NCBI RefSeq assembly: GCF_900107765.1
Contig: NZ_FNQY01000008.1
Coordinates: 124,001-188,000, forward strand
Source of the DNA: Arachidicoccus rhizosphaerae
GTDB taxonomy: Bacteria > Bacteroidota > Bacteroidia > Chitinophagales > Chitinophagaceae
Direction: 5' to 3'
DNA length: 64,000 nt
The position numbers and the translations under genes are program-made. Under the pieces are notes generated by a model. It was not told where the DNA came from. It did not search any database and saw only the letters and a program-made list of their open reading frames with translations. Below, one piece after another: positions 26,591 to 41,547 of the stretch; position 1 is the stretch's first letter, and every line of letters starts with the position of its first letter.

Positions 26591-29500
26591 ATGAGCAAGC
26601 TGAAACCAAGGTTTTTTAGAATGCCCTTTTTACTGACACTATTGATCTGCCTTTTATGGGCATATAATGTGAAAGCAGGGCAGGGGAAGATGGAGCTGAC
26701 CTATCAGCAGCAGTTATTAACCGGTCAGGTTACCGACAGTACAGGTCATGGACTGGGCGGTGTATCCGTTCAAATCAAAGGTACGACCACTGGTACACTG
26801 ACGGATGACAACGGTAATTTTTCCATTCAGGCAGGCCAAAATGATGTGTTGGTCATTCAATACGTAGGCTATATTACGCAGGAACTGACGGTTAACGGTA
26901 CGGAGCCCGTCCGTATCCGGTTAGTGCAGGATGTCACGGATTTGAGCCAGGTGTTGGTGATTGGTTATGGTACCCAGAAAAAAAGTCTGGTGACCGGCGC
27001 CATCGCACAGGTCACTTCCAAGGATATCGCCAATAAGCAGATTGGCCGACTGGATGATGCCTTAAGAGGACAGGCAGCGGGTGTGTCCGTCATTCAAAGT
27101 AATGGCGCACCGGGTTCAGCTCCTGCCGTATATGTACGTGGGGTAACTTCTATTAATAATAGTGTGCCCTTATACGTCATTGATGGAGTCGTACAAACCG
27201 GGAATGGGGGGATTGATTATCTGGATCCTAATGATATCGCTTCCATAGAAGTTCTTAAAGACGCCGCCTCTGCGGCAGTATATGGTTCCAGAGCCTCCAA
27301 CGGTGTAATCATTATCACGACCAAGCAGGGGAGATTAGGCGAAACCAACCGCGTTAATTATAGCGGACAATACGGCTGGCAGGCGCCTATTACCAAGGTC
27401 AAAATGGCCAATGCGACCCAATACGCCGAGCTGCGTAATGAGGCAGCCTTAAATGACGGCGCTTCACTGCCCTATCCGGCGGCTGGCATTTATGGCACCG
27501 GAACCAACTGGCAGGATGAGATTTTCAGTGATCATGCCATTTACCAGAACCATAGCTTAAGTATAAGCGGTGGCTCAGAGAAGGCGACTTATTATCTCTC
27601 CGCCGGCTACAGAGGTCAGCAAGGTATTATCGCACCTTCTATTGCCTTTAATAAACAATTTTCTCTGACGACCAATACCAGTTTTAAACTGGGCAAATAC
27701 GTGAAAGTAGGGGAAAACTTTAGTTTTACCAATCAGAAAAACAATACGGGCCTGAATACGAACTCTGAGTACGGCGGACCTTTAAGTGACGCCTTGAACC
27801 TGGATCCGATTACTCCTGTTACCGTTAACAGCGATTTTGTTACGGCAAATCCGGGCACGTATCCGACAAGCAGAATTCCCTATCTGATTCAAGCAGGTAA
27901 TGGTGAGTATTATGCGATCTCTCCCAGGGTGCAGCAGGAGATGACCAATCCACTTGCTTTTATCCAGACACAGAAAGGCAATTACGGCTGGTCCAATAAC
28001 TTTATCGGAAGCGGTTATATTAATATTAACCCCATTGAAGGACTGAATCTGCGTTCTCAGTTCAGTGCCAAAGGCGGGTTCTGGGGATCTGAATCTTTTG
28101 GGTCCTTTTATTATATGAATACGACCAACGACCACACGCCGCCTAATGGCACCCAGAATTCTCATTACAGAGACGCCGAACATAATCTGACCTGGAACTG
28201 GGATAATACGGCTTCTTATAGCAAAGAAGTCGGACTGCATAGTTTTGAACTCTTGGCGGGCATGAGTGCCACCAAGCAGACGGGCCAGGGGGTAAATGCC
28301 ACGCATTATGGCGAACCGGTTACGTCCTATCAGGACGCCTCCTTTAACTGGGGTGTTTCCCAGGATTCAACAGCCGGCTGGGGTTATGAAAACCAGGTGT
28401 ATACGTTGGAATCATTTTTCGGACGTCTGAGTTATAACTATGCGGAAAAATACCTTTTGATGGGTATTGTCCGTAGAGATGCTTCTTCTAAATTCGGTTC
28501 TGATAACCGGTGGGCAACATTTCCTTCCGTGCAATTAGGCTGGGTCGCAACCAAAGAAAACTTCTTTCCTAAAAACACCCCGATTAATAATTTAAAGTTC
28601 CGCTTCTCCTATGGAGAAACCGGTAATGAAATGTCCCTTGATAATTTTATGTTTCAATCCGTAGTTAACGGCGGTGGCCGTAGAAATGCGGTATTCGGGG
28701 ATAACATGCTGCTGGTAGGATATAGCCCTTCTGCGCCCAGCAACCCTGCTTTAAAATGGGAGCAGACCAGTCAGCTGGACGCCGGCTTTGATATGATGCT
28801 GTCAGGAGGCTTTTCTGTAACCTTTGATTATTATAATAAGAAAACCAGTGGTATTCTGCAAACGGTACAGATTCCGGGATTTGCCGGTTATCTGGGCCAG
28901 CCCTATGCCAATGTGGGTGATATGAGTAATAAAGGGGTTGAACTGGAGCTGGGATGGAATAAAAACTTCAGTCAGGATATCCATCTGAGACTGAATGGTA
29001 ATATCTCTTATAATCAAAACCGCGTCACTTATCTGGGAGACGGAAAAGCTTATTTAGATGGCGGAGCCAGTTGGCAGGCCAGCTTGTATAGCCTGACACG
29101 TACAGCCGTGGGACAGCCCGTGAATGCCTTTTACGGATTTAAACAGTTAGGAACCTTTAAATCTCAGGCAGAAATTGATGCTTATGGTTATACGGATGCG
29201 GGTGGCGATTTTCAGCTATTTCAACCCAATGCCAAGCCCGGTGATTTAAAATGGTGGAAGAATCCTGATAATCCGGATGACGCAGGTAAGGGCGTGATCG
29301 GCCAGGGAGACAGAACTTTCCTGGGTGATCCTAACCCGCACTGGCTATATGGCGTTAACCTGAATTTTTCCTGGAAAAACTGGGACCTGCTGGCTTTTGG
29401 TCAGGGCGTCTGGGGCAATCAGATTTTTCAGGCCTATCGACGCAGAGATGTGGGCGTAGGTGGTTATGCAGGCGGCGCGAACTATCAGGTGGAAGCGCTG

Positions 29501-29824
29501 AATGCCTGGACAACGCTCAATCCTACCAGCAATTATCCGCGTATTACGGATGCGGATCCTAATAATAACTTTGCCAATCCCTCTGATTTTTATCTGCAGA
29601 GTGGTGCTTATTTCAGATTAAAGACTCTGCAGATCGGCTATACGATGCCTAAGTCTTTACTCAATGTAATCAAAGCACAGACTGTCCGGATTTATGCGAG
29701 TGCCACGAATTTAGTTACACTAACTAAGTATACCGGTTATGACCCTGAAATAGCAGGTGGAGTGGATAAGGGCTTATACCCGCAGGCAAAGACATTTATT
29801 ATTGGTTTGAACATTGGACTTTAA
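26591..29824 (+). CDS. SusC/RagA-type TonB-dependent outer-membrane transporter
   Basis: A 1077-residue outer-membrane protein that imports glycan oligosaccharides using TonB energy. A signal peptide covers residues 1-29, followed by a carboxypeptidase-regulatory-like domain (LTGQVTDSTGHGLGGVSVQIKGT, about 43-120), a plug with VLVIGYGTQKKSLVTGAIAQV, the diagnostic SNGAPGSAPAVYVRGVTSINN and PLYVIDGVV stretches, and a large beta-barrel ending QAKTFIIGLNIGL. There is no N-terminal anti-sigma-signalling (STN) domain, so regulation by an ECF/anti-sigma pair is unlikely. It is first in an operon with SusD and two glucanases. Confidence 0.95.
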   Translation: MSKLKPRFFRMPFLLTLLICLLWAYNVKAGQGKMELTYQQQLLTGQVTDSTGHGLGGVSVQIKGTTTGTLTDDNGNFSIQAGQNDVLVIQYVGYITQELTVNGTEPVRIRLVQDVTDLSQVLVIGYGTQKKSLVTGAIAQVTSKDIANKQIGRLDDALRGQAAGVSVIQSNGAPGSAPAVYVRGVTSINNSVPLYVIDGVVQTGNGGIDYLDPNDIASIEVLKDAASAAVYGSRASNGVIIITTKQGRLGETNRVNYSGQYGWQAPITKVKMANATQYAELRNEAALNDGASLPYPAAGIYGTGTNWQDEIFSDHAIYQNHSLSISGGSEKATYYLSAGYRGQQGIIAPSIAFNKQFSLTTNTSFKLGKYVKVGENFSFTNQKNNTGLNTNSEYGGPLSDALNLDPITPVTVNSDFVTANPGTYPTSRIPYLIQAGNGEYYAISPRVQQEMTNPLAFIQTQKGNYGWSNNFIGSGYININPIEGLNLRSQFSAKGGFWGSESFGSFYYMNTTNDHTPPNGTQNSHYRDAEHNLTWNWDNTASYSKEVGLHSFELLAGMSATKQTGQGVNATHYGEPVTSYQDASFNWGVSQDSTAGWGYENQVYTLESFFGRLSYNYAEKYLLMGIVRRDASSKFGSDNRWATFPSVQLGWVATKENFFPKNTPINNLKFRFSYGETGNEMSLDNFMFQSVVNGGGRRNAVFGDNMLLVGYSPSAPSNPALKWEQTSQLDAGFDMMLSGGFSVTFDYYNKKTSGILQTVQIPGFAGYLGQPYANVGDMSNKGVELELGWNKNFSQDIHLRLNGNISYNQNRVTYLGDGKAYLDGGASWQASLYSLTRTAVGQPVNAFYGFKQLGTFKSQAEIDAYGYTDAGGDFQLFQPNAKPGDLKWWKNPDNPDDAGKGVIGQGDRTFLGDPNPHWLYGVNLNFSWKNWDLLAFGQGVWGNQIFQAYRRRDVGVGGYAGGANYQVEALNAWTTLNPTSNYPRITDADPNNNFANPSDFYLQSGAYFRLKTLQIGYTMPKSLLNVIKAQTVRIYASATNLVTLTKYTGYDPEIAGGVDKGLYPQAKTFIIGLNIGL

Positions 29825-29859: not shown

Positions 29860-31413
29860 ATGAAACGAAATAAAATATTATTATATAGTAGTCTGGCGCT
29901 GGGGGCTTTGCTAAGCTTATCTGCTTGTTCCAAGTCTTTTTTGGAACCGACGCCAAAAGGAGAGTCTCTGGAAAGTAATTATTATTCAACACCCGCAGAA
30001 GCGCTGGCCGGGCTGGTGGCTGCTTACGGTCCCAGTCAGGTAACTTATACCGGCAGTTATGTCTCTCAGGAAGGGCTGGCCAATGCGGCCTCCGATGAAT
30101 GTTATTCAGGCGGCGGTAGCGTCAATGACCAGATTACCTGGACGGCGATGAATGACATGAGCTTACTGACGCCTGCACAGATGCCCAGCGGTTTATGGTC
30201 TGTAAACCTGCAGGGGGTATCCGCCTGTAATCTGATCTTATCCAAATTACCCGGCGCTTCACTGGATGACGCAACCTTAAAACGCTATACAGGTGAAGCC
30301 AAGTTCTTAAGGGCTTATTATTATTTTCATTTGGTTCGCTGGTTTGGCCGGGTGCCCTTGTTTACCTCAGCCGTTACCCTGGATGAAATCTATGCGGCCA
30401 CGCAGAGCTCTCCGGATTCTATCTATGCACAAATAGAAAAGGATTTAAATGATGCAGCACCAGATCTGCCTAAAACGGTAGATGCCTCAGAAAATGGCCG
30501 GGCCACCCAAGGCGCTGCCCTGGCTTTACTGGGGAAGGTCTATCTGTATGATAAAAAATACAGTCAGGCGGCAACAGAGCTGGCCAAGGTCAATGGTACG
30601 CCCGGAGGCACCAGCCCTTATGGTTATCATCTGATGGCGAACTATGGAGATATTTTTACCCAGAAATTTAATGCAGAGTCCATTTTTGAGATCCAGCATT
30701 CCCAGACACAGAACTATGGCGACTGGGGTGGCGGCACCGCTACCGGTAACCTGTATGCGGTCATGTGCGGTCCCAGAAACTATAGTTTTAAATCGGACCC
30801 TGCACCTACCATCGTTACTGGCTGGGGCTTTACCCCTGTCTCTTACGACCTGCATGATGCCATGGTGGTAGATGGTAAATATGATCCCAGATATCCATAT
30901 ACCATTTATAATATCGACAGTATGGCCAATGCGGGTTTATGTGCTTATTCTGCTACTGCGTATAGTGTAAGCTTTCCTTATTCAGGATATAATATCGCCA
31001 AATTTGCGCCGCTCCAGCAGTTCAAGGGCTCTGGCGGAGACCCTTATCTGAACTACGGAGTGGATTATATAGAGATCCGTCTGGCAGATACTTACCTGAT
31101 GGAAGCAGAGGCGCTGGTGCAAGGCAGCGGCGATAAATCCAGGGCACAGGCATTGTTGGACGCTGTAAGGGCAAGAGTGGGCCTGAGTCCTGTCACGGTT
31201 TCTATGGATGCCATTAAAAATGAAAGACATCTGGAGCTCGCTACAGAAGGTCACCGGTTCTTTGATCTGGTACGTTGGGGAGATGCCGATAAAGTACTCA
31301 ATCATATGGAGAAAGGATATTCCAAGAATTTTGTGACCGGCAAAAATGAGGTGTTGCCGATTCCTCTTTCTGAACTGACCAATACGAAGATGGTACAAAA
31401 CAGTGGCTATTAA
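29860..31413 (+). CDS. SusD/RagB-type surface glycan-binding lipoprotein
   Basis: A 517-residue outer-membrane lipoprotein that caps the SusC barrel and binds the incoming glycan. The SPII lipobox LSAC is near residue 23, followed by the usual KSFLEPTPKGE start, the TPR-rich middle with AKFLRAYYYFHLVRWFGRVPL, the late ADTYLMEAEALVQ helix, and the C-terminal NERHLELATEGHRFFDLVRWG block common to the family. A TTG two codons earlier could be read, but the ATG at 29860 gives the normal MKR lipoprotein signal. It is 35 bp after the SusC gene. Confidence 0.95.
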   Translation: MKRNKILLYSSLALGALLSLSACSKSFLEPTPKGESLESNYYSTPAEALAGLVAAYGPSQVTYTGSYVSQEGLANAASDECYSGGGSVNDQITWTAMNDMSLLTPAQMPSGLWSVNLQGVSACNLILSKLPGASLDDATLKRYTGEAKFLRAYYYFHLVRWFGRVPLFTSAVTLDEIYAATQSSPDSIYAQIEKDLNDAAPDLPKTVDASENGRATQGAALALLGKVYLYDKKYSQAATELAKVNGTPGGTSPYGYHLMANYGDIFTQKFNAESIFEIQHSQTQNYGDWGGGTATGNLYAVMCGPRNYSFKSDPAPTIVTGWGFTPVSYDLHDAMVVDGKYDPRYPYTIYNIDSMANAGLCAYSATAYSVSFPYSGYNIAKFAPLQQFKGSGGDPYLNYGVDYIEIRLADTYLMEAEALVQGSGDKSRAQALLDAVRARVGLSPVTVSMDAIKNERHLELATEGHRFFDLVRWGDADKVLNHMEKGYSKNFVTGKNEVLPIPLSELTNTKMVQNSGY

Positions 31414-31447: not shown

Positions 31448-32509
31448 ATGAGAAATATAATGATAACAAGGGGCTGGATTGTAAGCACTGTTTTAGCCGG
31501 ATGCCTTATGGGTGGCAGCTGTTCTAAGCAAGACACGGCTTCTCTGAATGCGGGGATTCCGACGGCCAGCTTCATTTATAATGAACTGACACCCAGCAGT
31601 GCCTCGAGTGCCGATAACCTGGAGCTGATCAGCACCAGCACGGGTTCCATGAAGGCCTACTGGACGGTGCTGGATGATCAGGGGGCTAGTGTGGGCGAAT
31701 ATGTTGGAGACACTGTAAGACTGGCGCTGACCTTTGCCGGAGACTATACGGTTAAAATGGCTGCCGGCGGTCCTGGCGGGTTGTCTGACACTGTGCAGCA
31801 GTCCGTTCATATTGCCCAGGATAACACCTATGCTGTTGGTTCAACAACGCTTCTGGGTATTCTGTCAGGTGCAGGACTCGGCAAAAAAGAACGGACCTGG
31901 GTTCCGGACAGAGTGCTGAGTACCGTGATTGTATGGGATACCTATGCCAATGCTTTGGGACAGATCAACGGGGGCGGCGGCGCCTGGTGGGCTTTTGGCC
32001 CCGGAGAAATCGCTACTGACGGCAGCGGCAGGGATGGGTATTTTGACGATAAATTCACCTTTACATTTGGTAAAACAGGTCAGATGATCTATGATGACAA
32101 CAATACAGTGTATCTGGATAACGGGGGCTCCGGCTGGACAAAAGCGCTGCCTGCACCCTGGAACAGTTTTCAGGGAACGACCTCTTCCACTGCTTTATAT
32201 GACCTGGTTCCGGCCTTAAAACCCTGGGGTAGCGGCACGTTCGGATACGCCGTGTCTGCGGCACCTGCAGGGGAGATGAAACTGGGTACCATAACCATTA
32301 AAGGTAAAGGCGGACATTTTGGTCTGGCCGATAAAATCAACGGAGCGGAAGAAGTGACACCAACGGCCAGTTCGGTCACCTATGACGTGTTACAGATAGA
32401 TACCGACAAGGTAGATGACAACGGCGTCCACTATGATGTACTTTCCATTGGGGTACATTATGACGCAAGTGGTGATGTATTTACCTTTATGTTGCGATCT
32501 GACCGCTAG
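31448..32509 (+). CDS. PKD-like surface lipoprotein of the glucan locus (putative glycan-binding protein)
   Basis: A 353-residue lipoprotein with SPII lipobox ending at Cys25 (MGGSC). After a short linker comes a PKD/Ig-like segment (about 39-122; ELTPSSASSADNLELIST, then FAGDYTVKMAAGGPGG), and a C-terminal part rich in Gly and aromatic residues (WWAFGPGEIATDG, 171-183). Position right after SusD, where Sus loci keep their accessory surface glycan-binding proteins, suggests it binds beta-glucan on the outer membrane; that is inference. It has no visible catalytic motif. The Met at codon 5 (31460) is an alternative start. Confidence 0.7.
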   Translation: MRNIMITRGWIVSTVLAGCLMGGSCSKQDTASLNAGIPTASFIYNELTPSSASSADNLELISTSTGSMKAYWTVLDDQGASVGEYVGDTVRLALTFAGDYTVKMAAGGPGGLSDTVQQSVHIAQDNTYAVGSTTLLGILSGAGLGKKERTWVPDRVLSTVIVWDTYANALGQINGGGGAWWAFGPGEIATDGSGRDGYFDDKFTFTFGKTGQMIYDDNNTVYLDNGGSGWTKALPAPWNSFQGTTSSTALYDLVPALKPWGSGTFGYAVSAAPAGEMKLGTITIKGKGGHFGLADKINGAEEVTPTASSVTYDVLQIDTDKVDDNGVHYDVLSIGVHYDASGDVFTFMLRSDR

Positions 32510-32621: not shown

Positions 32622-33716
32622 ATGAAACGAATCAATCCAGGTTTTGTTTTTTTTGCGGCCCCCTTACTGATTTTACTCTCCTGTAGTAAAGGCAGTAGCT
32701 ATCAGCCGCCGGCGACTCCAACTAACCTGTCCTATCATGTTGAGATTGTAGGTGCAACGACCGGTGATCCTGCAGGTGACGGGTCGGGGGTGGTGCATTT
32801 GAGTTTATCGGGAAAAAATGTGACTTCTTACGCGGTGTCGCTACCTACAGAAAACAAAACTTATTCACTTACTGCAGCTTCCGGTACTGTTGACATCGTA
32901 TTTAGTTCCGGGGCAGGTACTACCACCAAATATCCCATAAATATCAGTGCCTACTGTAATACCGTAAAAGCAGATACGACGCTGTATGCCTCCGTATATG
33001 TAAGTAAACCTGAAACGCCGGGCACCGTTCTTGTCTGGTCAGATGAGTTTGACAGTACGGCTCTGAATACCAATGTCTGGAATTATGAAACGGGCAATCT
33101 GGGAGTCAATAATGAACTTGAATATTATACAAAAGACGCTGACAACCTGCAGGTGAAAGACGGTTATCTGCAAATTACCGCCCTGAAATCTGCCAACTAT
33201 AATAACAGCGGCTGGGATTATACCTCCGCCAGAATCAATACCCAGGATAAGTTTAGCTTTACCTATGGCAAAGTGGTCATCCGGGCAAAGATCCCTGGAG
33301 ACGACGGAACCTGGCCTGCACTGTGGCTATTGGGTAGTAACATTAACGCTGTTGGATGGCCTGCATGCGGAGAAATTGATCTGATGGAAGAAGGAACCGT
33401 TACCGGCTTTGAAAATATTTTATCTTCCCTGCACTGGGGAACCCTTGCATCCCCCCAAGATATGATGCAGTCCAGAAAAGTGAGCGGTTCTACAACGGAT
33501 TTTCATGAATATTCAATGGACTGGCGTGCGGATCATATCGCCTTTTATTATGACGGTACCTTACTCTATAGCCAGGCCAACACCAGCAGTATGCCTTTTA
33601 ATCAAAAATTCTTTTTCATTTTTAATGTGGCAGTCGGAGGTAATATGGGAGGCACGAACATTAATCTGAAATCTGGTTCCACCATGTATGTGGATTATGT
33701 AAGGGTGTATAATTAG
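32622..33716 (+). CDS. GH16 family endo-beta-glucanase (laminarinase-like), lipoprotein
   Basis: A 364-residue lipoprotein (lipobox LLSC, Cys21). Residues 36-128 form a beta-sandwich-like module shared with the GH30 gene downstream. The GH16 catalytic domain runs from about 134 (TVLVWSDEFDSTALN) to the end, with the signature EIDLMEE at 251-257: Glu251 nucleophile, Asp253, Glu256 acid/base. The motif has the extra residue between Asp and Glu (ExDxxE) found in beta-1,3-glucan-active laminarinases. It is expected at the cell surface to cut beta-1,3-glucan for SusCD uptake. Confidence 0.9.
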   Translation: MKRINPGFVFFAAPLLILLSCSKGSSYQPPATPTNLSYHVEIVGATTGDPAGDGSGVVHLSLSGKNVTSYAVSLPTENKTYSLTAASGTVDIVFSSGAGTTTKYPINISAYCNTVKADTTLYASVYVSKPETPGTVLVWSDEFDSTALNTNVWNYETGNLGVNNELEYYTKDADNLQVKDGYLQITALKSANYNNSGWDYTSARINTQDKFSFTYGKVVIRAKIPGDDGTWPALWLLGSNINAVGWPACGEIDLMEEGTVTGFENILSSLHWGTLASPQDMMQSRKVSGSTTDFHEYSMDWRADHIAFYYDGTLLYSQANTSSMPFNQKFFFIFNVAVGGNMGGTNINLKSGSTMYVDYVRVYN

Positions 33717-33830
33717 GGATTTACTTTGTATGAATATGAAATTTATTTCCTTTTTAGTTTGTGGCCGGTTGCTTGCCTTTAAAAGAAAGGTTGATATTAA
33801 AAGCAGATGAGTGTTAAAAAAATGTACAAT

Positions 33831-35573
33831 ATGAAGCGCCTAGAAAAATACACATTGATCGTATTATGCATCAGTTTACTGTGGTGTAGTATGGCCTGTT
33901 CCAAGCATGATACGCCTTCGGGCAGCGAACGGACACCTGCCAACTTAAAGGTAAAGGTGACGGTCCAAGGATCGACTGCCCAAATGCCTGACGGGGACGG
34001 GTCAGGAGCCGTAAGCATAGAGGTGTCGGCTCAAAATGCCACGAACTATCAGGTAATCCTTCCAACAGAAAATAATAAAACCTTTACGATCAATACTCCT
34101 TCGGGAGGGCAGGCCAACTATACTTTTTCCGGCAGTCCCAATACTACGGCCACTTTCCCGGTTCAGGTAATCGCCTATAACGGATCCGCACACAAGGATA
34201 CGAGCTTTTCCGTGAAGGTGTATTTTGCAGCACTTCAGTCGGATGTCGATTTCTGGCTGACAACACCGGATAAATCGGTTTTGTTCAGCAAGCAAAATAC
34301 TGCATTAAATTTTGTGACGACTTCCAACAGCTATTCGACCATTACCGTAAATGACCAGAAAAAATATCAGTCTATTGATGGTTTTGGTTTTACGTTAACC
34401 GGTGGCAGCGCTGAATTAATCAACGGACTGGATGAGCAGACGAAAGATAATTTATTAAAGGAATTGTTTTTAACGGATGGTACCGGCATTGGCATCAGTT
34501 ATTTAAGACTCAGTATCGGAGCTTCTGATCTGAGCAGTTCGGCCTATACCTATGACGACAGCCCCGGAGACAGTGAATTAAAAAACTTTAGTATTGACAA
34601 GGAGAAAGAGGATCTGCTGCCCCTGCTTAAAAAAATTCTCGCCCTAAACCCGGATATTAAGATCCTGGCGACGCCCTGGAGTGCCCCGGCCTGGATGAAA
34701 TCCAATAATAGCCTTTATGGCGGCGGAGATCAGCCTGGTATATTATTGCCTAAGTATTTCGACGTATATGCCGATTATTTTGTAAAGTATATCCAGGCGA
34801 TGAAGGCAGCCGGTGTGCCTATTGATGCCGTGACGGTTCAGAATGAACCGCTCAATTCCTACAATAACCCTTCCATGCTAATGACCGATACAGCGGAAAA
34901 TGAATTCATCAAAAATTATCTTTGGCCTGCTTTTAATAAAAACGGAATTGATACAAAAATCATCGTCTATGATCACAATCTGGATCATCCTGAATATGCT
35001 AAGTACGTTTTAAGTGACCCTGATACTTACAAAATGGTAGACGGCTCCGCTTTTCATTTATATGCCGGAGATATCAGTACTATGTCTTCCATTCATGAGG
35101 CTTTCCCGGATAAGAACCTGTATTTTACGGAGCAGTATACCTCTGCTACCGGTGATTTTGGAGGAGATCTTAACTGGCATATTCAGAATCTGATAATAGG
35201 TGCCACCAAAAACTGGAGTCGCAATGTGCTGGAATGGAATCTGGCAGCAGATGCTCAGAATCAACCGCATTTGCAGGGAGGCTGCTCTGATTGTCTGGGT
35301 GCCCTCACCATCAGTGGCAACAGTGTCACGAAAAGAAATCAAAGTTATTATATCATTGCCCACGCTTCCAAGTTTGTCAGACCAGGATCCTCTCGTATTG
35401 ACTGTTCTGAGGTGAGCAATCTGTTAAGTGTGGCTTTTTTGACGCCTGAGAATAAGAAGGTGCTGATTGTTTTAAATAAGGCCTCGCAGGCTCAAAGTTT
35501 CAATATTCAGTATGGGGGTAAAATGGTTACGACAGCGTTGCCTGCGGGAGCGGTAGGCTCTTTTATCTGGTAA
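33831..35573 (+). CDS. GH30 family beta-glucanase (probably beta-1,6-glucanase), lipoprotein
   Basis: A lipoprotein of 580 residues (lipobox ending Cys23). Residues 39-132 repeat the module seen at the N-terminus of the GH16 enzyme. The GH30 TIM-barrel plus side beta-domain starts about residue 165 (QSIDGFGFTLTGGSA) and holds the acid/base Glu339 in TVQNEP and nucleophile Glu434 in YFTEQY. The closing VLIVLNKASQAQSFNIQYGG strand block is the usual GH30 beta-sandwich. Pairing with a laminarinase points to beta-1,6 branches rather than glucosylceramide or xylan. Two earlier starts exist (33807 GTG-less ATG, 33822); 33831 gives the cleanest signal peptide. Confidence 0.87.
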   Translation: MKRLEKYTLIVLCISLLWCSMACSKHDTPSGSERTPANLKVKVTVQGSTAQMPDGDGSGAVSIEVSAQNATNYQVILPTENNKTFTINTPSGGQANYTFSGSPNTTATFPVQVIAYNGSAHKDTSFSVKVYFAALQSDVDFWLTTPDKSVLFSKQNTALNFVTTSNSYSTITVNDQKKYQSIDGFGFTLTGGSAELINGLDEQTKDNLLKELFLTDGTGIGISYLRLSIGASDLSSSAYTYDDSPGDSELKNFSIDKEKEDLLPLLKKILALNPDIKILATPWSAPAWMKSNNSLYGGGDQPGILLPKYFDVYADYFVKYIQAMKAAGVPIDAVTVQNEPLNSYNNPSMLMTDTAENEFIKNYLWPAFNKNGIDTKIIVYDHNLDHPEYAKYVLSDPDTYKMVDGSAFHLYAGDISTMSSIHEAFPDKNLYFTEQYTSATGDFGGDLNWHIQNLIIGATKNWSRNVLEWNLAADAQNQPHLQGGCSDCLGALTISGNSVTKRNQSYYIIAHASKFVRPGSSRIDCSEVSNLLSVAFLTPENKKVLIVLNKASQAQSFNIQYGGKMVTTALPAGAVGSFIW

Positions 35574-37442: not shown

Positions 37443-38804
37443 ATGAAAACGATTTTATTTGGATTGGCGCTTTTGACCACTGTCGGCTGCTCGGCTGGCG
37501 AGCAAAAGACAAAGGAACCATGGGAGCCCCTGTTTAATGGAAAGGATTTATCCGGCTGGACCCAAAAGGGGGGCAAAGCTGAATTCCAGGTCAAGGACGG
37601 CATGGTTGTGGGAACTACGGTCCATCATACGCCTAATTCCTTTATTTGTACCGATAAGGATTACGGGGATTTTATTCTGGAACTGGATTATAAGGTGGAT
37701 CCGTCCATGAATTCCGGTATTCAAATCAGAAGCCATAGCACGGCGGTATACCAAAACGGGAGAGTACACGGCTATCAGGTGGAGATAGATCCTTCTGATC
37801 GCGCCTGGAGTGCTGGTATATATGAAGAGGCACAGCGCGGATGGCTGGTTCCTTTAACCGATAATCCAACTGCAGGACATGCTTTTAAACAAAATGACTG
37901 GAACCATTACCGCATTGAGGCGATAGGCGATACGATCAAAACCTGGATAAACGGAGTGGCGGCATCTAATCTGATTGATGATAAATCTCCAAACGGATTC
38001 ATAGCCTTGCAGGTGCACCAGATTGGAGATAAAGATTCCGCAGGTAGACAGATTATGTGGAAAAACGTACGCATTATCACTAAAGACGTGGCTAAGTATA
38101 GTACGGCTACAACCGCAAAACCGACTTATACCAAAAATACCCTGACTGCAGAAGAAGCGAAAAATGGCTGGAAACTGCTCTGGGACGGTAAAACGACCAA
38201 CGGATGGAAAGGCGCTAAACTGGATCATTTTCCTGATAAAGGCTGGACTATCGATAATGGAGAACTTATCGTCAATGCGGCCGATGGGAAGGAATCTGCT
38301 GATGGCGGCGATATTATAACGGATGACCAATACGGAGATTTTGAACTCAGAGTTGATTTTAAACTGACTAAAGGAGCCAACAGTGGCGTTAAATATTATG
38401 TGGATCCTGAGCTCAATAAAGGATCAGGTTCCGCCATTGGCCTGGAATACCAGATTCTGGATGATGAAAACCACCCCGATGCCAAACTGGGTGCTCAGCC
38501 GGGCAGTAGAACGGTCTGTTCTTTATACGATATGATCCGGGCCAACCCCGACAAGCCCATTAATCCGGTCGGTGAGTGGAATACAGCTTATATCGTCAGT
38601 AAAAATAATCATGTGGAACACTGGCTTAACGGAGTTAAAGTGCTGGAATATGAAAGAGGCAGCAAAGAATTTGAACGTCTGGTCAAAGAAAGTAAATATA
38701 AGGTATGGCCAAACTTTGGACTGGCTAAAAGAGGGTATATCCTCTTACAGGACCATGGAAACAAAGTCTATTTCAGAAACATCAAAATCAAAGCCTTAAA
38801 TTAA
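37443..38804 (+). CDS. Tandem DUF1080 (3-keto-disaccharide hydrolase type) lipoprotein
   Basis: A 453-residue lipoprotein (signal [16 protein letters not shown], Cys16). It carries two consecutive DUF1080 (PF06439) concanavalin-like domains: about 27-217, starting [13 protein letters not shown], and about 235-452, starting [13 protein letters not shown]. The second keeps the [18 protein letters not shown] block typical of the hydrolase group. Members of this family cleave or hydrate 3-keto-glycosides produced by Gfo/Idh/MocA dehydrogenases. Two such dehydrogenase genes follow directly (the first starts 6 bp after this stop), supporting a shared pathway. Location should be the outer membrane or periplasm. 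Confidence 0.88.
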
Positions 38805-38810
38805 ATCCTT

Positions 38811-40151
38811 ATGACAACCAGAAGAGATTTTATCACGAAGACCGTTTTAAGCAGTGCCGGACTTATGCTGGGAAAATCAGTGATGAGTATGTCTGCCCGA
38901 AGTTATAACCGAATTATCGGTGCTAACGACCGTATTCATGTAGCCCTGGCCGGGCTTGGCAGAAGGGTAGGCGCTTATTACGACCCCATGGGTAAGAAGG
39001 AAGCAAATGTAGAAGTGGTCTATTTGTGTGATGTCATGAAAAGCCAAAGGGAGCGCTGTCTTAAAGAAATATCTAAACATATCAGCAATACGCCGACGCT
39101 GGAAAATGACATCAGAAAAGTACTGGCAGACAAAAATGTAGATGTCCTGGTCAATGCTACCCCCGATCACTGGCATACCCCGGGCTCTATCCTGGCCATG
39201 CAGGCCGGTAAAAATGTCTATGTAGAAAAACCTTGCAGCCACGATATGCAGGAAAATGAGTGGCTGGTGCAGGCAGCCAAAAAGTACAAAAAAATCGTTC
39301 AGATGGGTAACCAGCAAAGATCCTCTGCACACACGATTGATATTATTGACCAGATCCATAAGGGTGTTATAGGAACGGCTTATAAGGCTGTTGCCTTCTA
39401 TTCCAATGCAAGGGGTGAAGTGCCTAAGCAGAAAGCGGCACAGCCGCCGGCAGGGCTGGACTGGGAGCTCTGGCAGGGGCCTGCCGTAAGAAGAGACTAC
39501 ACGGATAATACCTGGGATTATAACTGGCATTGGTATGGTTGGAATTATGGTACGGCAGAGGCCGGCAATAACGCCACCCATGAACTGGACGTAGCGCGCT
39601 GGGCCCTGGGAGTGGATTATCCTGAGTTTGCCGAAGTGGAAGGGGCTAAAAGACATTTCCTGAATGATGGCTGGGAAATGTATGATACCATCTTATCCAC
39701 TTTCCGGTTTCCGGACAATAAGATTATTCAGTGGGATGGCAAGAGCCGTAACGGTTATAATACTTATGGTTCTGACAGAGGTACCATTATATTTGGTTCT
39801 GAAGGGACAGTGTATGTAGACAGAAATAAATACCGCCTGATGGACCGTTCCGGTAAACTCATCAAGAATTTTGACAGCAACTCCCATGAAGCGGGTAATA
39901 CACTGGGCGGCGGCGGAGATACCACTACCGGTCATATGATTAATTTCTTAAACACCATCCGGGGCAAAGACTCCTTACATGCACCTATTGCCGATGCGTC
40001 TATTTCTATGGCCATGGTACATTATACCAATATGGCCTTCAGAACAAACAAAGGCTTTGCCGTAGATCCTACAACCGGTCATGTAAAGGATCCTGAGGTT
40101 CAAAAGCTATGGGGCAGACAGTATGCCAGCGGCTGGCAACCGAAGCTGTAA
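38811..40151 (+). CDS. Gfo/Idh/MocA family oxidoreductase, Tat-type signal (first of pair)
   Basis: A 446-residue NAD(P)-dependent dehydrogenase expected outside the cytoplasm. The N-terminus TTRRDFITKTVLSSAG is a Tat-like signal (RRDF). The Rossmann part begins DRIHVALAGLGRR (around 40-52); VNATPDHWHTPGS and the YVEKPCSHDM motif with its catalytic EKP lysine follow. The C-terminal domain has GNNATHELDVARWAL, a conserved His-containing helix of the family. The preceding tandem DUF1080 gene and the following paralogue suggest C3 oxidation of a glycoside. Start codon 6 bp after the DUF1080 stop, so they share a transcript. Confidence 0.9.
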   Translation: MTTRRDFITKTVLSSAGLMLGKSVMSMSARSYNRIIGANDRIHVALAGLGRRVGAYYDPMGKKEANVEVVYLCDVMKSQRERCLKEISKHISNTPTLENDIRKVLADKNVDVLVNATPDHWHTPGSILAMQAGKNVYVEKPCSHDMQENEWLVQAAKKYKKIVQMGNQQRSSAHTIDIIDQIHKGVIGTAYKAVAFYSNARGEVPKQKAAQPPAGLDWELWQGPAVRRDYTDNTWDYNWHWYGWNYGTAEAGNNATHELDVARWALGVDYPEFAEVEGAKRHFLNDGWEMYDTILSTFRFPDNKIIQWDGKSRNGYNTYGSDRGTIIFGSEGTVYVDRNKYRLMDRSGKLIKNFDSNSHEAGNTLGGGGDTTTGHMINFLNTIRGKDSLHAPIADASISMAMVHYTNMAFRTNKGFAVDPTTGHVKDPEVQKLWGRQYASGWQPKL

Positions 40152-40212
40152 ACGGCCTCGGACAGTAATCGCTTTGTTACCAGATTAGGACACTTTAAAA
40201 GAAAAAGATATC

Positions 40213-41547
40213 ATGACAAATCATAGCAGACGAACATTTATAAAGAATGGATCCCTTTTGGCGGCTGGTGCCGGTGTGGCGGCGCTTATGCCAGGTGGTC
40301 TGATGGCTGCGCGCAGGAAAATAGCGGCCTCCGATAAGATTCGGGTAGCGGCCATTGGCGTTAACGGAATGGGTTTTTCTGATTTAAATTCCATTCTTAA
40401 AAATCCGGATGTCGAGGTCAAAAGTATTGTGGATGTGGATGAGCGGGTCTTATCCAAAAGAGCCTCGGAGCTGGCAGCTCAGGGTCATAAAGTGACGACA
40501 CTGACGGATTATAGAAAAGTACTGGAGGATAAAGATATTGACGCGGTGATTATCGGCACTCCGGATCACTGGCACGCAAAAATGATGGTGGATGCCTCCT
40601 CGGCTGGTAAACATATTTATTGTGAAAAACCAACCGGTCACAGTATTGCAGAGTGTCAGGCAATGATGGCTGCGCAAAAAAGGTATGGTAATGTGGTACA
40701 GGTCGGGCAGTGGCAACGCTCGCAAAAGCATTTTCAGGATGCGGTGGATTTTGTCCATTCCGGCAAACTGGGCAAGGTAAGGCTTGTGAAAACCTGGGCT
40801 TATATTGGGTGGAAGGATTCCATTCCAGTGGAACCGGACAGTCCCGTACCTCCCGGAGTCCATTATGACCAGTGGCTGGGGCCTGCTACCAAACGCCCTT
40901 TTAATATTAACCGTTTTCATTTTAGCTTTCGTTGGTTTTACGATTATGCCGGTGGCCTGATGACCGACTGGGGGGTGCATATGATTGATTACGCCATGTT
41001 AGGCATGAAGGCCAAAGACCGCTTTCCCCTGGCTATTTCTGCCATTGGCGGCAAGACCGGGTACCCTGATGATGCCCAGCAGTGGCCCGATACGATGAGT
41101 GCGATTTATGATTTCGGGGATTTTAATATGGTCTGGGAACAGGCCATGGGCATCGGAGGTGGCCCTTATGGCAGAGGTCATGGGGTAGCTTTTATCGGCA
41201 ATAACGGCACCCTGGTGCTGGATAGAAGCGGCTGGGAAGTGATTGCAGAAAAAAAGAGCAAAGGGCCGCTGATGGAAGCAGTGCCTATGCAAAAGTCAGT
41301 GGATAACGGACTGGACCTGCATACCAAAAACTTTGTGGAGGTTATTAAGTCTAGGAACCTGGCGGATTTAAAAACGCCGATTCAGGATGGTTGCCAGGTA
41401 GCCATGAACTGCTGTATGGGTAATATTGCCCAACGGGTCAGTAAAACCATTCATTGGGACAGTAAAGCCCTTCAGTTTACGGATAAAGAAAGTAATGGGT
41501 ATCTGAAAAGTGAATATCATAACGGCATCAGTTTTCCAAAAGTATAA
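40213..41547 (+). CDS. Gfo/Idh/MocA family oxidoreductase, Tat-type signal (second of pair)
   Basis: A 444-residue paralogue of the preceding gene. Tat-like signal at the start (SRRTFIKNGSLLAAGAG), Rossmann entry KIRVAAIGVNGMGFSD, then IGTPDHWHAKM and YCEKPTGHSI with the catalytic lysine. C-terminal TDWGVHMIDYAMLG corresponds to the substrate-side His helix. The two dehydrogenases differ considerably, so they may act on different sugars or on opposite redox steps. It lies 61 bp after the first and ends at the terminator at 41571-41598. Confidence 0.9.
   Translation: MTNHSRRTFIKNGSLLAAGAGVAALMPGGLMAARRKIAASDKIRVAAIGVNGMGFSDLNSILKNPDVEVKSIVDVDERVLSKRASELAAQGHKVTTLTDYRKVLEDKDIDAVIIGTPDHWHAKMMVDASSAGKHIYCEKPTGHSIAECQAMMAAQKRYGNVVQVGQWQRSQKHFQDAVDFVHSGKLGKVRLVKTWAYIGWKDSIPVEPDSPVPPGVHYDQWLGPATKRPFNINRFHFSFRWFYDYAGGLMTDWGVHMIDYAMLGMKAKDRFPLAISAIGGKTGYPDDAQQWPDTMSAIYDFGDFNMVWEQAMGIGGGPYGRGHGVAFIGNNGTLVLDRSGWEVIAEKKSKGPLMEAVPMQKSVDNGLDLHTKNFVEVIKSRNLADLKTPIQDGCQVAMNCCMGNIAQRVSKTIHWDSKALQFTDKESNGYLKSEYHNGISFPKV

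Follow-up and report, generated by a model that had tools for sequence, protein, structure and literature searches.

A 64,000 nt stretch of the Arachidicoccus rhizosphaerae genome (contig NZ_FNQY01000008.1, positions 124,001 to 188,000; here called the window) contains adjacent genes for two glucanases, one of glycoside hydrolase family 16 (GH16) and one of family 30 (GH30), that begin with the same module of about 100 residues. The module is probably a strongly diverged PKD-like domain that was copied from the GH16 enzyme onto the GH30 enzyme and most likely serves as a membrane-proximal stalk for two putatively lipid-anchored enzymes. This reading is built on the homology of the two copies, the phylum-wide context of their relatives, the predicted fold, the position of a lipobox-like cysteine ahead of the module and the grouping of all Arachidicoccus copies in a single clade.

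The shared module and its locus

The GH16 lipoprotein is encoded by the open reading frame (ORF) at 32622-33716 (364 aa) and the GH30 lipoprotein by the ORF at 33807-35573 (588 aa). In a single BLASTP comparison, residues 32-128 of the former (32715-33005) align with residues 43-141 of the latter (33933-34229), with 39 of 99 positions identical (39 %), 56 positive, 2 gaps and an E value of 2e-21. An earlier reading, made from the sequence only, had proposed that these catalytically unrelated enzymes carry a homologous N-terminal module. The alignment confirms this, and the motifs named in that reading, GDGSG, N-x-T-x-Y-x-V, the exact LPTEN and the last strand (D-T...V-Y), all lie inside it. 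The homologous module on both glucanases is real, and its pairing with them is mostly ordinary. A third copy was not found in the genome, either by sequence search (E <= 10), which returned only these two and a single hit of chance level (E 0.33, interrupted by five stops), or by profile search (E <= 1e-3). The features of the locus are as follows.

26591..29824, + strand: SusC-type TonB-linked outer-membrane transporter (TIGR04056, 851.6 bits, cut-off 368.25)
29860..31413 (alternative TTG start 29854), + strand: SusD-type lipoprotein (PF07980 and PF14322 above cut-off)
31448..32509, + strand: P0003, third lipoprotein, in the surface glycan-binding protein (SGBP) position
32622..33716, + strand: P0001, GH16 laminarinase-like lipoprotein (PF00722, 63.6 bits, cut-off 22)
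32682..32684, + strand: predicted lipidation Cys21 of P0001 (lipobox-like LLSC; the module profile match starts 8 residues on)
32715..33005, + strand: module copy 1, diverged PKD-like beta-sandwich, GH16 residues 32-128
about 33024-33713, + strand: GH16 catalytic part of P0001
33807..35573, + strand: P0002, GH30 endo-1,6-beta-glucanase-like lipoprotein (PF02055, 169.6 bits, cut-off 23)
33897..33899, + strand: predicted lipidation Cys31 of P0002 (lipobox-like SMAC; the module profile match starts 8 residues on)
33933..34229, + strand: module copy 2, diverged PKD-like beta-sandwich, GH30 residues 43-141
about 34239-35570, + strand: GH30 catalytic part of P0002

Laminarinases and endo-1,3-glucanases are among the top solved structures for P0001, and P0002 scores 393.8 bits against NF053856 (BT3312-type), under the equivalog cut-off of 700. 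Judged from these enzyme families, the substrate of the locus is presumably a beta-1,3/1,6-glucan. The gene order SusC, SusD, lipoprotein, GH16, GH30 is identical in Arachidicoccus ginsenosidivorans (L051).

Relationship to PKD domains

The link to PKD domains runs through intermediates. Control profiles for PKD_4, fn3 (fibronectin-III) and BACON were built from domains of other genomes and compared by hhalign. Of the 30 fn3 loci, 2 dropped out because they yielded no sequence close to a contig end; 1 of the 13 BACON loci was left out for its shortness, and 2 of the 30 PKD_4 loci because the table gave no strand for them. The Arachidicoccus modules reach a probability of 99.7 against GDGSG-type GH16 modules from other genera, 99.2 against SGBP and SGBP-GH16 fusion modules, 95.9 against ordinary PKD-type GH16 modules and 92.9 against tandem PKD lipoproteins, and an earlier comparison of a profile of six enzyme modules with seven SGBP N-terminal domains gave 98.5. 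The SGBP/fusion modules match PKD_4 with a probability of 96.5 (E 1e-9), as against 8.5 for fn3 and 6.0 for BACON. When relatives were scanned against Pfam, the equivalent domain passed a PKD cut-off in three of seven GH16-only relatives (L083, PKD 29.7, cut-off 23.5; L082, PKD_4 28.7, cut-off 27; L093, PKD 25.9, cut-off 23.5) and in one of seven SGBP-like relatives (L010, PKD_4 28.1, cut-off 27), with four sub-cut-off PKD matches among the latter. In the alignment, the modules and PKD have the strand pattern Y-x-V ... Y-x-I-x-V-x-A in common. An FGDG-type loop is the motif of the Pfam PKD families (PF00801 and PF18911). At the site of FGNG or YGDG in several bridging relatives, the window modules have LPTE; a single copy among the modules has LTTE.

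AlphaFold2, run on four sequences, predicted a seven-strand sandwich with a mean predicted local distance difference test score (pLDDT) of 80.9 and a predicted template modelling score (pTM) of 0.69. Apart from the C-terminal end, its weakest block is residues 21-30 (mean 60), at the start of the GDGSG loop. The model shows the seven-strand immunoglobulin-like (Ig-like) beta-sandwich of the wider PKD superfamily, and VIA-align placed the compact PKD chains 6aem, 4l9d, 4aqo and 1b4r at Z 8.1-8.5, with a root-mean-square deviation of 2.0-2.6 over 76-80 residues. This prediction supports an Ig-like sandwich, and nothing narrower.

A number of results weigh against a PKD assignment. Both window modules fall under the cut-off of every Pfam family, the top match being Cadherin-like (18 bits, cut-off 24.2), and no match to PF00801 or PF18911 is listed for either copy or for four other Arachidicoccus enzymes. 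Compared directly with PKD_4, the Arachidicoccus profile gives a probability of 0.6, which is no link, and with fn3 it gives 11.8 over 75 columns, with no Pfam fn3 (PF00041) match. The bridging sets are themselves not clean: the GDGSG-type GH16 modules of other genera are not separated (44.7 for PKD_4, 48.7 for fn3), the ordinary PKD-type GH16 modules reach 98.4 for PKD_4 yet also 91.4 for fn3, and four of the seven GH16-only and two of the seven SGBP-like relatives scanned have no PKD match at all. With the structure model, Foldseek returned nothing at E <= 0.001 and a PKD domain (1wgo) at rank 43, and in VIA-align the PKD, fibronectin-III and GH2 Ig-like domains were tied, with a GH2 enzyme in the top row (Z 9.1). 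As the direct PKD_4 link fails and the bridging sets partly match fn3, the name PKD-like that we give the module refers to descent via intermediate sequences, and we do not count it as a member of Pfam PKD. In this wider sense, judged by sequence comparison through those intermediates, it is a member of the PKD superfamily.

Other assignments were rejected. The domains that head the Foldseek list, from the Sec63 region of Brr2 (E 1.3e-3 and up), were not accepted as kin. For BACON (PF13004) there is no Pfam match, and the Arachidicoccus modules reach an hhalign probability of 7.8 over 14 columns; DUF1735 (PF08522) is absent from the Pfam matches of the window copies. Direct sequence comparison of the GH16 module alone and of profiles A2 and A4 with the PDB gave nothing better than E 0.008, and the absence of a family there proves nothing. 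An undescribed fold or family is rejected in view of the bridging homologues and the structure model. The sequence-only reading was right that the module cannot be assigned directly to a named family. Its view of the module as a candidate for something undescribed does not hold, since PKD-like domains to which the module is distantly related occur on lipoproteins in the beta-glucan loci of many Bacteroidota. The strong match to an Ig, PKD or BACON family that it had named as refuting its view came only by way of bridging relatives and fold, and not directly.

The N-terminal part (about 90 residues) of the third lipoprotein also looks PKD-like (hhalign against the modules, probability 63, E 7e-5, 37 columns). 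P0003 has no Pfam or NCBIfam match and its C-terminal part (about 225 residues) matches no family, with a mean pLDDT of 31.5 in the structure model; its counterpart in the genome G116 matches PF00801 (33.0 bits, cut-off 23.5). Comparison of this C-terminal part with the SGBP core from other genera did not show homology (hhalign probability 5). Over its full length, P0003 and its A. ginsenosidivorans equivalent are 74 % identical. P0003 may be a less described part of the locus than the module itself.

Distribution of the module and its history in Arachidicoccus

Of 195 genomes searched within the family, 16 gave matches, and three of these belong to the genus itself. The remaining 13 have the domain at the N-terminus of a lipoprotein-like protein of about 300 residues, and these proteins look like SGBPs. 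One of them (L007) matches PDB entry 7kv5, titled 'PKD domain protein', for the most part downstream of its module, at residues 109-314. 7kv5 is presumably the laminarin-binding BfSGBP-B. At E <= 1e-3, the enzyme profile matched 57 of 396 genomes of the order and a broader combined profile 47 of 395 genomes of the phylum, a minority of these matches being weak or in very long frames. The module had earlier been called locus-specific, which holds for this genome, with its two copies, and not for the domain family.

The 101 distinct modules scoring above 30 bits are carried by SGBP-like proteins (38), GH16 enzymes (36), SGBP-GH16 fusions (23) and GH30 enzymes (4), and by a permissive rule all 101 start 7-26 residues after a lipobox-like cysteine. 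A common arrangement in related loci starts with SusC and SusD, continues with a lipoprotein that combines two PKD-like domains with further repeats, and ends with a PKD-SGBP-core lipoprotein and a PKD-GH16 enzyme; in some loci (L032, L034 and L045 among others), the SGBP and GH16 are fused as PKD-SGBP-GH16. The large lipoprotein-like proteins (L083:6064-8136, L090:4223-6379 and alike), with two PKD-like domains followed by repeated C-terminal domains of unassigned family, have SusD on one side and the SGBP or SGBP-GH16 gene on the other. Of 64 distinct best-match places, 60 have a gene for GH16 or GH30 in their flanks (about 1.5 kb), the exceptions being L006, L071, L075 and L078. This count covers best matches with loci returned, excludes the A. 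rhizosphaerae genome, includes two other Arachidicoccus places and has duplicates merged by hand. The conserved genomic association about which the sequence-only reading had asked is present.

The module is present in five of six Arachidicoccus genomes, on both enzymes in four and on GH16 only in G890; G018 has none. It is absent from all 10 distinct GH30 ORFs from other genera whose 5' end could be seen. Among the loci examined the module on GH30 is seen only in Arachidicoccus, and GH30 carriers elsewhere are possible among matches for which no locus was returned.

Two trees were made. In the first (101 rows; L090, L023 and L050 flagged as long branches), the eight Arachidicoccus modules form one set with a Shimodaira-Hasegawa-like approximate likelihood ratio test (SH-aLRT) support of 97. 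For the second (41 rows), the three flagged rows were dropped, SGBP and fusion rows thinned, GH16 rows picked and the Arachidicoccus GH16 of G890 added. There, the nine Arachidicoccus modules form one set (support 100/100), within which the GH16 copies group at 98/92 and the GH30 copies weakly at 85/61. Sixteen rows, these nine and seven GDGSG-type GH16 modules, are supported at 98/92, with 25 rows on the opposite side (13 SGBP, 6 fusions and 6 ordinary PKD-type GH16). As the nine copies are one clade, one enzyme of the locus most likely gave the module to the other. The simplest reading would be a single copying from GH16 to GH30 before the species split, with later loss in G890. Against this, in the first tree the Arachidicoccus set stands weakly (59) beside L090 and apart from 32 other GH16 modules (SH-aLRT 93), so that an origin from GH16 rests on the second tree. 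In the second tree, the stem of the Arachidicoccus clade is long (1.02 changes per column) and the function may therefore have shifted, a point against the role favoured below. GH16 and GH30 modules of the same genome are 39-59 % identical, which speaks against recent gene conversion between them.

The architecture PKD-SGBP-GH16_3 is already published (PMC11345257). The Maribacter forsetii GH16_3 presented there has a lipid attachment site, a PKD domain, a part like the laminarin-binding BfSGBP-B, which the same account describes as laminarin-binding, and GH16. The window GH16 enzyme resembles it in its (predicted) lipid anchor, in a PKD-type domain that comes first and in a GH16 catalytic domain that comes last. 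It differs in lacking an SGBP core and in a module that is far more diverged and falls under the Pfam PKD cut-off. In the B. fluxus GH16 of that account, BACON stands in the place of the module. BACON, the N-termini of SusE and SusF, and DUF1735 of polysaccharide utilisation locus lipoproteins have been interpreted, in the relevant part of PMC11216935, as membrane-bound spacers. Like them, the window module is an N-terminal Ig-like sandwich right behind the putative lipid anchor; unlike them, it belongs to another sequence family, with no Pfam match to theirs. With PF00801 and PF18911 it shares fold, strand pattern and homology via intermediates, and it differs in the LPTE that stands for FGNG/YGDG and in scoring under the curated cut-off. 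The module is a diverged form of an accessory domain that is already known, as is the architecture in which it occurs, and its spread onto GH30 is seen only in Arachidicoccus. What is apparently new is the strong sequence drift, with LPTE replacing the PKD loop, and the presence on GH30. Among the open-access literature matches listed there was no Arachidicoccus or PKD-GH30 case, and we do not claim that none has been published.

Further observations concern neighbouring and related genes. The A. ginsenosidivorans GH30 (L051:9896-11521) breaks off within its C-terminal sandwich domain, at residue 541, with only 22 of 65 PF17189 positions matched; its relatives have 580-588 residues. The order of three genes downstream in the window (37443-41547) is kept in that species, and by eye one encodes a hydrolase-like protein with tandem domains and the other two encode oxidoreductase-like proteins that have twin-arginine-like starts. 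Outside the window, the A. rhizosphaerae genome has a second GH16/GH30 cluster that lacks the module (contig 23, 50000-66000; L109), in which neither the GH30 (L109:8716-10122) nor the GH16 (L109:7106-8671) shows a lipobox-like cysteine by eye.

Candidate roles of the module

The role we favour is that of a stalk. The module would belong to a PKD-like (immunoglobulin-fold) lineage that sits directly behind the lipid anchor in beta-glucan utilisation loci of Bacteroidota, and in an Arachidicoccus ancestor the module of one glucanase, most likely GH16, would have been copied onto the neighbouring GH30. The enzyme would be anchored in the outer membrane by its lipid, while the sandwich domain would hold the catalytic domain above the surface, thereby placing the enzyme beside SusC, SusD and the third lipoprotein, with which it may make contact. 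The position behind the anchor, the lack of tryptophan in most modules (it occurs in 2 of 101), a faster change than in the catalytic part and the presence of other sandwich domains in the same place all speak for a stalk. Of 16 orthologue pairs, 12 are less identical in the module than in the catalytic part, 2 have the same rounded value for both and 2 are more identical in the module, as expected of a structural part. Of the three functions that had been suggested from the sequence, the rigid spacer is in line with this stalk; glucan binding is not borne out.

Accessory domains of glucanases are often carbohydrate-binding modules, and a module that tethers both enzymes to beta-1,3/1,6-glucan would suit a locus whose enzyme families target beta-glucan. 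With 99 of 101 modules free of tryptophan (tyrosines are present), this role is unlikely. Pfam scans gave no carbohydrate-binding module family match for the window modules, and many relatives have a separate core behind the module, the part that accounts for most of the 7kv5 match in L007. It is still less probable, and indeed scarcely credible, that the module is a passenger, which was carried over together with the signal peptide as one gene received a copy of the other's 5' end and which is functionless on GH30. Signal peptide, lipobox and module could travel as one block and the fast change of the module would fit, but the GH30 module is kept in an open frame in four of six Arachidicoccus genomes and the GDGSG core is found in every aligned copy.

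Docking is a possible though doubtful alternative, in which the common PKD-like fold gives both enzymes a shared contact on SusC, on each other or on the third lipoprotein, in a complex like a utilisome. One domain lineage does occur on several surface lipoproteins of a single locus, and in 16 aligned SGBP, GH16, fusion and GH30 modules (the ordinary PKD type not included) the loop has an invariant P, G, D, G and G and a nearly invariant S and V. A GH16/GH30 pair that lacks the module lies about 100 kb away in the same genome, and a profile scan of 16 kb there gave neither SusC nor SusD. We keep docking as a serious rival because, in the part of PMC7618045 on the levan utilisome, SusC, the enzyme and the N-terminal domain of the levan-binding protein together make up a rigid unit. 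That SGBP resembles the window enzymes, for which lipidation is predicted, in having a lipidated N-terminal Ig-like domain and SusC as a neighbour; there the domain is on the binding protein and here on the enzymes. Against docking, the enzyme itself sits on SusC in the levan utilisome, with no such domain mentioned for it in that part of the account. The GH30 of other genera near SusC/SusD manages without the module, as does an Arachidicoccus GH30 beside SusD (G018), and the modest identity between the GH16 and GH30 modules of one genome indicates that a shared interface is not strongly kept. A bolder form of the idea, which we consider unlikely, is that the PKD-like lineage acts as a shared address tag over the binding protein, the laminarinase and the Arachidicoccus 1,6-glucanase for assembly on SusC/SusD, and that the GH30, previously free, was newly recruited by it.

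With the membrane-proximal stalk as the favoured role, a module that the profile libraries searched had left blank can now be placed in a recurrent design of glucan-locus proteins, that of a putative Ig-like stalk between lipid anchor and working domain. The module-bearing GH30 enzymes of Arachidicoccus, beside module-free GH30 enzymes in the same genomes, offer a clean natural comparison between lifting of the enzyme above the surface and its recruitment to SusC/SusD.

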